Shown here one piece after another: positions 39,804 through 45,711 of a stretch of DNA of 64,000 nt. The stretch is from Gemmatimonadota bacterium (GTDB taxonomy: Bacteria > JAAXHH01). How positions within the stretch are numbered: position 1 is the stretch's first letter; each line of letters opens with the position of its first letter. Below the pieces are notes generated by a model. The model was not told the origin of the DNA. It did not search any database and saw only the letters and a list, made by a program, of their open reading frames with translations. Position numbers and translations under genes: made by a program. The DNA lies in the NCBI GenBank assembly GCA_009837395.1, contig VXTP01000006.1, positions 1-64,000 on the forward strand. The letters are read 5' to 3'.

Positions 39804-39884
39804 GAATAGGCCTTTCCGGTAATCGATGTCCTGGAATCGATGCCCTGGAATCTATGCAACAGATGGGGAAATCTACGAAGAGAA

Positions 39885-39958
39885 TACGCCCGGAGGGATT
39901 CGAACCCCCGACCTACTGATCCGAAGTCAGTTGCTCTATCCAGCTGAGCTACGGACGC
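39885..39958 (-). tRNA. tRNA-Arg (anticodon TCG)
   Basis: A 74-nt cloverleaf: a 7-bp acceptor stem ending in a G-U pair, a D-arm GCTC/GAGC, an anticodon arm with loop CTTCGGA (TCG) and a T-arm with TTCGAAT. Discriminator A at 39885; CCA is not encoded. It reads CGA (and by wobble other CGN) codons. Confidence 0.96.
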
Positions 39959-40031
39959 ACGGGGAACCCATTGAGGCCAGCACCCGATATACGCACAGAA
40001 CGGATTGATGTCAACGAAATCAATCTTCCAT

Positions 40032-40793
40032 TCATCGGCCAATACTGCGAACGAGGATCAGGCGGAGGAGGGCGAACCGCTGATCGATGCCATAGCGGCA
40101 TGGGCTCGGGAGACCTGCGGGTCCGCAGATGCCCGCGTTGACGCCAAGGCGGTTCGGGGCCTGGTGACCGGTCTCTCCTGTATCGACGTACTGACCTTCG
40201 AATCGGATGCTCCATGTACCGGCCACCGGCATTTCGATACCTGTGCCCACGACCCACCCGACGCGTGTCAGCTGATCGTCGAATGAATCGTCGTGGTCCA
40301 CGTGCATCTGGCCGTCGGTTCCCGGGTCGAGATCGATGAACGAATTCGATATACCGGCAACCGACACGCCGCCGTCGAGGAACACACCGACACGCCCGAA
40401 AGGCTTCCGAACGCCGATGCGCGCCGTCGCGACCCAACGCAATTCCGATGTGGCCGTTTCGTCCATGCCGACGGGGTCCATCTGCCGCGAGGCCGACGGA
40501 AGACCGACGAAGGCGCCATCCACTTCGAACCGGATCGGCACGCGTCCAAGGTGAAAGTGCCGCCCTGCCACGACACCGACCGGGAATCCGGTATCGTCGT
40601 ATTCGTACGTTTGTCCGGGGACGCCTTGAGACCCCGTAAATCCGTCGAGATCGGTCGATTGAACGTCCAATACACCCGGACCCGAGAATACGCCGACGTA
40701 GAAACCATCCCGGTTTTGCTGGGCTTGCGTGGTTCCCGTGAAGGTGAGCAGGGAAGCGAGTGCCAGCGCCAGCAAACGCCAGCCACTTCGCAC
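40032..40793 (-). CDS. Outer-membrane beta-barrel protein, small
   Basis: A protein of about 253 residues if it starts at the GTG at 40793, which begins a clean signal peptide ('RSGWRLLALALASLLTF') ending in AQA. The frame extends to a TTG at 40898 with an ATG at 40880, but this would bury the signal. The mature part shows alternating barrel strands ('GFYVGVFSGPGV', 'VPIRFEVDGAFVG', 'VGVFLDGGVSVAG', 'WSIRFEGQYV') as in the eight-stranded OmpA/OMP_b-brl class. The C-terminus is not a classic ending in Phe. No specific function can be given. It lies alone next to the tRNA. Confidence 0.68.
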   Translation of the reverse strand: MRSGWRLLALALASLLTFTGTTQAQQNRDGFYVGVFSGPGVLDVQSTDLDGFTGSQGVPGQTYEYDDTGFPVGVVAGRHFHLGRVPIRFEVDGAFVGLPSASRQMDPVGMDETATSELRWVATARIGVRKPFGRVGVFLDGGVSVAGISNSFIDLDPGTDGQMHVDHDDSFDDQLTRVGWVVGTGIEMPVAGTWSIRFEGQYVDTGETGHQAPNRLGVNAGICGPAGLPSPCRYGIDQRFALLRLILVRSIGR

Positions 40794-40998
40794 GGTGACT
40801 GGCCGGGGAGACGAGGACTGTGTAGCTGATTTGCAATCCACAATCTTCAAATCTCGTAAGCATCCCATGTTTCTGCCCATCCTTGTGCTTGATTCCAATG
40901 TGGAAATCCGGATGGATCGATACTACGCTTTCGAGGACTATTTAACAACCTATACATGCAGACTGATGTTCTTTTGAGACTTTTTTCGACAAAGGGGC

Positions 40999-41027
40999 TT
41001 GACAATCGTCTTAATGTGTACTATATA
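40999..41027 (+). promoter_or_regulatory. Sigma-70-type promoter for the XRE gene
   Basis: A consensus -35 TTGACA at 40999-41004 and a -10 TATATA at 41022-41027 are separated by exactly 17 nt. The ATG of the XRE gene at 41034 lies 7 nt after the -10 box, so transcription should begin at or next to the start codon and give a leaderless mRNA. The box region also contains a short direct repeat (ATATGACA, ATGACAC), a possible self-binding site. Confidence 0.8.
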
Positions 41028-41033
41028 TGACAT

Positions 41034-41387
41034 ATGACACATTTTGGCAAACACATCCGTTCCCGCCGCGAAGCCCTGAGGAAGCAAGACAGGCGATTCT
41101 CCCTGCGTCAGGTGGCGCAGCGCATCGAGGTCGAGCCGGCCTACCTGAGCAAGATCGAGCGTGGCGATGTGGCGCCGCCGTCCGAGGCCACGACGCTTAA
41201 GCTGGCGCGGGACCTGGGCGAGGACCCGGACGTGCTTCTGGCCCTGGCGGGCAAGGTATCGAGCGATCTGAAGGAGATCATCCGCAAACGGCCGAAGCTT
41301 TTCGCGGACTTGATCCGAAAGATGAAGGAAGCGCCCGATCACGCCATCCTCAGGATAGTACGCGAGGTGCGGGACGGTGAATGGTAA
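41034..41387 (+). CDS. XRE-family HTH transcriptional regulator
   Basis: A 117-residue regulator. Residues 5-65 are a Cro/C1-type HTH: 'FSLRQVAQRIEVEPAYLSKIERG' holds helices 2 and 3. The C-terminal 50 residues are a conserved helical tail ('DPDVLLALAGKVSSDLKEII'), with no peptidase domain. No ribosome site precedes the ATG; the promoter placement suggests leaderless translation. It is followed after 18 nt by a conserved gene of unknown function (41406), probably in one transcript. The likely job is control of this two-gene unit. Confidence 0.9.
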   Translation: MTHFGKHIRSRREALRKQDRRFSLRQVAQRIEVEPAYLSKIERGDVAPPSEATTLKLARDLGEDPDVLLALAGKVSSDLKEIIRKRPKLFADLIRKMKEAPDHAILRIVREVRDGEW

Positions 41388-41405
41388 CATTTAAGGAGGA
41401 AAGTG

Positions 41406-42419
41406 ATGATTTACCTTGAGCACGACCAACTGGAAATAAGTTGCCCGGAAGTCCACGAAAAGGCCCGGTGTTCGATCTCGTTTCAGCGTACGCTGCGCAT
41501 CCCGGACGATGGGCGGGACTACCCATTGCCTCCGGGCCTGGGCTGTTTCCCCCTGCGCCACCTGGACGACTACGCGGAGCGCCTGCCGGACGAGTGGGTC
41601 CGCAGAGGCGGCGTGATCATGCCGATGTTCCAGGCCGAGGCGATGTGGCTGAATTTCGGCGGTTACAGCGCTTATCCGTTCGCATTGAAGATCGCGACCG
41701 GAAAGGTCTGCGCGATCACGGGAGAGCACTGGATAAATCATCTGAATACCGATCCACAGGACTACCTGGTATTGCCCGAACAGCCGTGGCTCGATGGGTA
41801 CTGCGTCGAAAAGGGCGTGATCCGCCAGTTCGTGGCCATGCCGCTGGGCAAGGGGTACACGGTCGAGGAGCAGTTGACGGGCTCGGCGCAACACGGCGGC
41901 CTGCAGATAACGGCCTATCCCATGAAGGCGGAACGGTATGAAGCGATGCGGACCAGAGTATACGGAGAAATGGACATGGCGCCGATGGCGATGCAGAGCC
42001 CCCAGGAGGAAGGCATGGGCCTGGCGCCCGGCGGCAAGATGCGGCAGGAGATCTACGAGGACGACTACGGCCTGGATGCCTGGGACCAGCGGCACCCCGT
42101 CCGGTGTTTCGTTACCATCGCAAATTCGTCCCAGTGGATGGCGATAACCGGTGAGCGTCCGCCGATAGAGCCGCCCACAGCCCAACACTATACCGAAGCC
42201 GGCCTGCCCTGGTACGACTATTACGATGCCGATCACGAGCCCGTTTCGGGCAGCGAAATCCTGAAGTCGGTGAAGAGTGTGGCACAGACCAGCAAGGAGA
42301 AAGGCGAAACGGCGCTGCCAGACAACGAATCGATCAATGGAACCCGGGTCGTTACCCTCCGGGACACGAGGAAACGCAAGGTTCGGGAGTATTCCGACAG
42401 CGAATCGCAGGATACGTGA
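41406..42419 (+). CDS. Conserved protein of unknown function paired with XRE regulator
   Basis: A 337-residue soluble protein without signal peptide or membrane segments. The ATG at 41406 has a near-perfect AAGGAGGA site at 41393-41400. The composition is regular and well-folded looking, with several aromatic-rich conserved-type blocks: 'YPLPPGLGCFPLRHLDDY', 'GGYSAYPFALKIATGKVC', 'PQDYLVLPEQPWLDGYC' and 'PLGKGYTVEEQLTGSAQHGG'. I recognise the type as a conserved hypothetical protein that follows a short XRE gene in other bacteria, but know no function. The last 60 residues are charged and probably disordered. It is co-directional with, and 18 nt downstream of, the XRE gene. Confidence 0.8.
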   Translation: MIYLEHDQLEISCPEVHEKARCSISFQRTLRIPDDGRDYPLPPGLGCFPLRHLDDYAERLPDEWVRRGGVIMPMFQAEAMWLNFGGYSAYPFALKIATGKVCAITGEHWINHLNTDPQDYLVLPEQPWLDGYCVEKGVIRQFVAMPLGKGYTVEEQLTGSAQHGGLQITAYPMKAERYEAMRTRVYGEMDMAPMAMQSPQEEGMGLAPGGKMRQEIYEDDYGLDAWDQRHPVRCFVTIANSSQWMAITGERPPIEPPTAQHYTEAGLPWYDYYDADHEPVSGSEILKSVKSVAQTSKEKGETALPDNESINGTRVVTLRDTRKRKVREYSDSESQDT

Positions 42420-42553: not shown

Positions 42554-42627
42554 TACCCCAGGCAGGATTCGAACCTGCGACCCTCGGATTAGAAGTCCGA
42601 TGCTCTGTCCAACTGAGCTACTGGGGC
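42554..42627 (-). tRNA. tRNA-Arg (anticodon TCT)
   Basis: A 74-nt cloverleaf with acceptor GCCCCAG paired to CTGGGGT, a D-arm GCTC/GAGC, an anticodon loop CTTCTAA (TCT) and a T-loop TTCGAAT. Discriminator A at 42554; CCA is not encoded. It reads AGA and AGG codons. It has the same orientation as the tRNA-Arg(TCG) 2.6 kb away but a different body, so the two are not recent copies. Confidence 0.96.
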
Positions 42628-45307: not shown

Positions 45308-45438
45308 ATGGGTAAAGAAGTGTGAGAAGATGTCCAGTTCAGGGGTTTTGTGTGGGTGTTTAACAGCCGTACGTATGACAACAGGACTAGAAATCGGGTA
45401 CGCTTAAGCCCGTGTTTCCAACCAACTCGGAGCAAATC

Positions 45439-45711
45439 ATGACCGTTTACCTGGAAGACCGGGTCACGAAACTTGAAAAACAGTACGACCACATCGTAAC
45501 ATGTCTTGCGGGGCTTGCAGATTCGTTTGTTAAACTCGACAAACGGATGGATGCGCTGGAACAGAAGGTTGACGGTCTGGAACAGAAAGTAGATCGTCTT
45601 GAGCAAAGAGTAGACCGACTCGAGCAGAAGGTTGACGGTCTTGAGCAGAAGGTTGACGGTCTTGAGCGGAAGGTTGACCGTATTCTGGAGATCATTCAGT
45701 CTAATCAGTGA
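45439..45711 (+). CDS. Small coiled-coil protein with heptad/minisatellite repeat
   Basis: A 90-residue protein. The ATG at 45439 has GGAG 6 nt upstream; a GTG at 45412 is less likely. From about residue 37 it is a regular seven-residue repeat of the type L-E-Q-K-V-D-G, six units, giving an uninterrupted coiled coil. The N-terminal part ('RVTKLEKQYDHIVTCL') is also helical. No signal peptide. Short coiled-coil proteins of this kind are common and their function is unknown. Confidence 0.7.
   Translation: MTVYLEDRVTKLEKQYDHIVTCLAGLADSFVKLDKRMDALEQKVDGLEQKVDRLEQRVDRLEQKVDGLEQKVDGLERKVDRILEIIQSNQ
45555..45680 (+). repeat. 21-bp coding minisatellite
   Basis: Six 21-nt units, each encoding one heptad, lie in the coiled-coil gene. 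Units differ at a few positions (GGT/CGT, AAG/AGA/CGG), so the array is old enough to have diverged but still in frame. Copy number may vary between strains. Confidence 0.85.

Follow-up and report, generated by a model that had tools for sequence, protein, structure and literature searches.

Comparative sequence analysis indicates that a gene for a predicted XRE-family repressor and the gene that follows it, here called Q, form a real, very likely self-regulated and mobile two-gene module of an undescribed family in the window (the whole 64,000-nucleotide stretch of Gemmatimonadota DNA analysed here). A role in conflict or defence is our best single guess at its function: we consider, with a probability of about one half, that XRE–Q is a self-contained, horizontally mobile conflict cassette, probably anti-phage or anti-MGE, that operates by a tail-docking mechanism.

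The first-pass annotation had described the two genes as a unit in which an XRE regulator is followed, after 18 nt, by a soluble 337-residue protein of no known function. Both open reading frames (ORFs) were confirmed at the coordinates collected in Table 1, as was the 18-nt gap between them. Q starts with the ATG at 41406, an in-frame GTG at 41403 being the less likely start, and ends with the stop codon at 42417–42419. The XRE protein belongs to the HTH_31, or Cro-C1 type, HTH family, scoring above the curated Pfam cut-offs for HTH_31 (PF13560, E 9.9e-10; 39 bits, cut-off 27) and HTH_3 (PF01381; 33.4 bits, cut-off 23). Each of the two genes is present in the genome in one copy of its kind. 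Solubility of Q is borne out by the absence of a membrane segment (maximum 19-residue hydropathy 0.83), and its lack of a known family by zero matches in Pfam, NCBIfam, PADLOC and PHROGs; it matched 0 families of the PADLOC 2.0 defence models at E<=10, and a search of the PDB by sequence and profile gave nothing meaningful. Four peptide motifs of Q and XRE were found in no paper of the collection searched, and our search of this literature found nothing on the XRE–Q pair.

Table 1. Features of the XRE–Q locus and of the spot that it occupies (positions in the window).
Feature	Position	Strand	Basis
tRNA-Arg (TCG), left border of the variable spot	39884–39959	-	ARAGORN; occupied and empty sites compared
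OMP_b-brl outer-membrane protein gene, same variable spot	40032–40898	-	Pfam PF13505, E 6.8e-10
-35 element TTGACA	40999–41004	+	Sequence
Predicted XRE operator, imperfect palindrome TGTGTACTATATATGACATA	41015–41034	+	Overlaps the -10 box and the A of the XRE ATG
-10 element TATATA	41022–41027	+	Sequence; 17 nt from the -35 element
XRE-family repressor (predicted)	41034–41387	+	117 aa; HTH_31 and conserved C-terminal region
XRE C-terminal tail VRDGEW	41367–41384	+	Tail pattern
Shine–Dalgarno sequence AGGAGG of Q	41394–41399	+	Read from the sequence, within the 18-nt gap
Q	41406–42419	+	337 aa; no family match; predicted compact beta-rich fold
VRE remnant of the shared tail in Q (KVREYSDSESQDT)	42381–42389	+	Comparison of Q tails
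tRNA-Arg (TCT), right border of the variable spot	42554–42627	-	ARAGORN; site comparison

One promoter fits both genes, as had been proposed, and it is accompanied by a conserved operator. The TTGACA–17 nt–TATATA arrangement places the predicted start of transcription at 41034, the A of the XRE ATG; a consensus promoter scanner missed it because it demands T at the sixth position of the -10 box. Downstream of Q, no terminator above chance was detected. Of 52 relatives, 40 have a TTGA[CT]-like box between -28 and -50 relative to the start of XRE, most often at -34 to -39, and a Shine–Dalgarno-like motif precedes only 7 of 52 XRE starts, compared with 45 of 52 Q starts. The -35 spacing and the rarity of such motifs before XRE suggest that transcription starts at the ATG or only a few bases from it, so that the XRE–Q mRNA is expected to be leaderless. 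Leaderless mRNA is known for lambda cI.

Homologues from different phyla and from phages have, at the start codon of XRE, a palindrome that resembles TGTGTACTATATAGTACACA; it is perfect in L060 and nearly perfect in L059, L030, L116 and L129. At least 14 positions of the 20-bp operator consensus are matched in 44 of 58 nonredundant upstream regions, and at least 16 in 31 of them, as compared with dinucleotide shuffles, which centre on 10 and reach 14 at most. Spanning the -10 box and the start, the operator is well placed for repression, and XRE very likely represses its own promoter. In the genome, 41015–41034 is the only site within three mismatches of the operator. An XRE regulon was therefore rejected, and XRE appears to be dedicated to its own operon.

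Judging by the alignments, XRE and Q are both conserved as proteins far beyond chance. Thirty-one columns of the Q alignment are invariant among 79 homologues; the residues concerned are mostly Gly, Pro, Trp, Gln, Arg and Asp, and no recognisable catalytic set or motif was found among them. The AlphaFold model of the window Q (pLDDT 83.7, pTM 0.82) and the AlphaFold2 model of a phage Q, L105 (pLDDT 87.9, pTM 0.85), are both beta-rich with small helices. Foldseek found no PDB neighbour for either (best E 0.15 and 1.0); a known fold was thus rejected, and the predicted fold is apparently new, without a PDB relative. In a viral structure library, two Harvfovirus proteins match nearly the whole of Q (E 2.5e-22 and 6.6e-20; TM 0.68–0.70 over the query) and a Hyperionvirus protein with a ubiquitin-like domain matches the fold with E 4.3e-9; further matches were found in pitho-, asco-, irido- and nudiviruses, all those beyond the two Harvfovirus proteins being partial, with TM mostly 0.2–0.45.

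A single scan of a species-level genome collection detected 98 Q loci at E<=1e-3, 80 of which were kept. The phyla represented include Latescibacterota, Gemmatimonadota, Nitrospinota, Acidobacteriota, Chloroflexota, Pseudomonadota, Planctomycetota, Verrucomicrobiota, Kiritimatiellota, Lentisphaerota, Poribacteria, Spirochaetota, Deinococcota, Myxococcota and Actinomycetota, and the pair is spread over at least 15 bacterial phyla and very large phages. Because most Q relatives come from metagenome-assembled genomes (MAGs), single Q contigs could be misbinned. The distribution is patchy: Q was found in 4 of 349 genomes of Pseudomonadota, 6 of 297 of Actinomycetota, 9 of 289 of the phylum of L047 and 20 of 301 of Chloroflexota, the positive centre genome is part of each count, and some matches in Actinomycetota and the L047 phylum are weak or partial. 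Within the genus, 7 of the 11 other members searched carry Q; a second, partial and diverged Q, with 72% identity over residues 56–167, occurs in a genus member (L089; G010, contig C3, 3335–3685). Q is also found on six plasmids, in two phage records and in 12 IMG/VR contigs (nine of 13–452 kb). The Q tree has 36 changes of phylum, compared with a least possible number of 20, and a 43-row clade with 98% support mixes Pseudomonadota, Chloroflexota, Acidobacteriota, Gemmatimonadota, Nitrospinota, Latescibacterota, Spirochaetota and Deinococcota.

This 98%-support clade is rich in MAGs of sponge symbionts from many phyla; the sample codes RHO, COS, IRC, SB06, jk18 and p16 presumably denote sponge origin. 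The accessions of bins 129, 56, 52 and 95 appear in Table 2 of a paper on Aplysina aerophoba, and sponge symbionts of this kind are reported there to be enriched in defence genes (PMC5649159). This clade, the high conservation of Q with its invariant columns and the giant-virus relatives, whose ubiquitin-like-domain protein hints at eukaryotic links, would also agree with a role in housekeeping or in interaction with a host, for example in sponge symbiosis, in which Q senses a ligand and acts as a co-regulator of its own XRE. We regard such a role as unlikely, however, as the one operator in the genome leaves no regulon, most genomes lack the pair, the pair is carried by plasmids and very large phages, and Q matches no enzyme family.

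A same-type XRE gene lies beside Q, directly upstream and on the same strand, at 118 of 146 Q loci, and the adjacency that the first-pass annotation had recommended checking is thus nearly constant. Pairwise distances of XRE and Q are correlated (r 0.758 over 77 nonredundant pairs; maximum 0.34 in 2000 permutations), a correlation to which the host phylogeny common to both may add. When about 900 neighbouring ORFs were clustered, only XRE and Q recurred beyond lineage-specific synteny, and a third conserved gene was rejected. The case for an undescribed system had been made to depend on a conserved neighbourhood and on Q having no clear match to a housekeeping family; the neighbourhood is conserved and a housekeeping enzyme was rejected, the similarity of Q to enoyl-CoA hydratase (E 1.2–1.6) being noise. 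On these sequence comparisons XRE and Q clearly travel together, the family has been transferred between phyla, and XRE–Q is almost certainly a mobile two-gene module.

The gene order, the small upstream HTH protein, the short intergenic gap, the putative self-repression palindrome, the tight co-inheritance and the carriage on plasmids and phages are also those of a classical type II toxin–antitoxin (TA) operon, in which XRE would be the labile antitoxin, neutralising the toxin Q through its C-terminal region and repressing the operon. That XRE–Q is such an operon is nevertheless distinctly improbable. An adjacent XRE is lacking from every full-length Actinomycete copy of Q sampled, those of Streptomyces and Labedaea included, except for that on a Euzebya plasmid; it is also lacking in two Poribacteria and in the phages L090, L105 and L108, and an unneutralised toxin should kill the hosts of such copies. 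Moreover, Q is large (about 320–425 aa), predicted to be compact and without a toxin-family match in Pfam, NCBIfam or PADLOC. Of the earlier proposal that the pair is a defence or addiction module, simple addiction is therefore disfavoured by the many Q genes that lack XRE, and defence is favoured by the genomic spot described below.

The complete pair is found in six viral contigs of 230–452 kb (L098, L100, L103, L104, L106 and L107), integrase-type genes are present at L038, L042, L060, L069 and L070 (Pfam-confirmed for L070) and a leaderless, self-repressed HTH gene recalls lambda cI, all of which would suit a phage-derived decision or superinfection switch, that is, a minimal repressor/antirepressor pair of large phages and prophages that hosts have kept because it protects them from related phages, but this is very unlikely in view of the window-genus copies, which lie between tRNA genes without phage genes, and of the phage Q sequences, which fall mostly in one subclade that is not at the base of the family in a tree with a midpoint root only.

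In the window, XRE–Q and an OMP_b-brl gene lie between two tRNA-Arg genes. The OMP_b-brl gene accompanies the pair within the genus only (its ORF cluster comprises L002–L004 only). The spot is empty in the sister genome G008, where about 60 bp separate the two tRNAs. The same interval in G004 (L170:2314–4633) is occupied by a type II restriction cassette with an MT-A70 methylase (E 3e-27), a BglII-type endonuclease (E 2.5e-24) and a 253-aa protein without a Pfam match. At L172 and L173, in two further sister species, XRE–Q is joined by a DUF4268/NucS_C gene matching the PADLOC model PDC-S11 (E 4e-170 and 7e-168). The inter-tRNA interval is a hot spot exchanging defence-type cargo, PDC-S11 being a candidate defence gene. 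The presence of antiviral genes in the XRE–Q spot of sister species argues that XRE–Q is probably itself a defence or conflict system. The left-border tRNA-Arg (TCG) is missing at L171 and L172 (sister genomes G006 and G001) relative to 39913–39983 of the window: the alignment skips most of this tRNA and ARAGORN finds tRNA-Arg (TCT) only. Elsewhere in the window, a small ORF at 45412–45711 encodes head-to-tail heptad-like repeats (VDGLEQKVDRLEQK), probably a coiled coil.

The flanking defence genes sought at the suggestion of the first-pass annotation are thus present, as the restriction–modification (R-M) cassette and PDC-S11, in the genus spot; no clear enrichment was seen elsewhere. Outside the genus, defence models near the pair are not clearly denser than a few kilobases away, and general defence-island enrichment was rejected, PADLOC matches being similarly few among 94 near and 94 far neighbours. 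Among the near matches, inspection showed a helicase at L017 (DpdF model) and matches of kinase type at L051. Diverged Q genes were found in several settings. On a Bradyrhizobium conjugative plasmid, a 33%-identical Q lies among M12, caspase-family and trypsin-like peptidases; a Q of the Verrucomicrobial group is located inside a sigma factor/FHA-kinase/kinase operon; and one Puniceicoccaceae Q (L070; L176:6835–8403) is naturally fused to a C-terminal VWA domain, on an element with two integrase genes nearby. Peptidase, kinase and VWA partners are common in conflict systems. A DUF932 protein of phage or plasmid type lies directly 3' of Q in L047, L054 and L055, and Pfam detects DUF932 in four near neighbours of Q in total.

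XRE proteins of different phyla end in VREVRDG[DEN]W. Comparable ends are found on Q: VRDGKW (L090), VRDGSW (L094), VRNGKW (L100), VRNGSW (L105) and VTDGTW (L091), as well as PVEDGDW in Streptomyces, VREGTF and similar ones. In the fetched loci, the tail pattern is carried by 87 of 92 XRE ORFs and 25 of 114 Q ORFs, as compared with 4 of 7499 other ORFs. Among 101 nonredundant Q tails, 30 have the full V..G.[WF], 46 only VRx and 25 neither; the tail is degenerate in most of the clade of the window Q, in some other Q and in the window Q itself, which keeps VRx only. One of the four other ORFs encodes a small protein that lies directly upstream of Q in L105, a phage without XRE, and ends in KKVRTGKW. 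This 155-aa protein (L105:5359–5826) also has paired CxxC/H motifs. A DNA pattern search for further tailed proteins in the window genome found none, XRE being the sole carrier of such an end.

The same terminal motif on two otherwise unrelated partners argues for a common receptor, which could be Q, a Q oligomer or a third protein, and we think it probable from this pattern that the tail is an interaction motif. Actinomycete Q genes retain the tail without any XRE; consequently, it cannot serve XRE–Q contact only. Docking of the tail in cis was considered for the L105 model, where the pLDDT of the tail is 55–69; stable cis docking is therefore not supported.

As a conflict cassette, XRE–Q could function as follows. 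XRE would bind the palindrome over its own -10 box and start codon and keep both genes low, and the leaderless mRNA would make the first gene translatable in many hosts. Q would be the effector, or a sensor-effector. Carrying the same motif, V-R-[D/E/N]-G-x-W/F-COOH, repressor and effector would probably dock into the same site, which could belong to an oligomer of Q or to a partner of both. If this site were altered, for instance by infection, a ligand or loss of the repressor, the promoter would be freed and Q would rise. A more far-reaching version, which we consider doubtful, is that XRE–Q represents an immune system, or a conflict system between elements, of a new class, in which an effector of new fold is silenced by a repressor with the same docking tail, competition between tails couples sensing to derepression and the fold reaches as far as very large phages and eukaryotic giant viruses.

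Beyond the first-pass annotation, the analysis adds the operator and the expected leaderless start, the C-terminal motif common to both proteins, the hot spot flanked by tRNA genes and the occurrence in phages; the proposed tail-docking mechanism is likewise new. A family with 31 invariant positions across bacterial phyla and no relative in family libraries or the PDB is a gap worth filling, the more so as Q occurs in viral contigs of 200–450 kb and, by fold, in giant viruses. The operator, the tail motif and a hot spot that may be empty or hold R-M or PDC-S11 genes make two hypothetical genes specifically testable. If XRE–Q is an immune module, it would be one shared among bacterial phyla, with many sponge symbionts among its hosts, and adopted by very large phages.

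XRE–Q resembles several known systems in part. Within the hot spot, PDC-S11 and the type II R-M cassette either take the place of XRE–Q or sit beside it between the same pair of tRNA-Arg genes, although their sequences are unrelated to XRE–Q. The giant-virus proteins of Harvfovirus, Hyperionvirus and others are similar to Q in predicted fold. Like the XRE/HTH_31 autorepressors (HigA, CapH of CBASS, lambda-like repressors), XRE is a small HTH protein encoded by the first gene, with a palindrome at its own promoter; unlike them, it has a specific C-terminal region ending in VREVRDGxW. Its match to the capH model is weak (E 5.5e-8) and there is no conserved adjacent peptidase gene; CapH/CapP-regulated CBASS operons combine an HTH repressor with a peptidase and a cyclase/effector, whereas XRE–Q has no conserved third gene. 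With type II TA systems XRE–Q shares the two-gene layout, the putative self-repression signals and the mobility. The toxin of such a system would be expected to come from a known toxin family and its gene not to persist without the antitoxin; in contrast, Q is large, has no relation to known toxins and often lacks its regulator, as in the Actinomycete, Poribacteria and phage copies.
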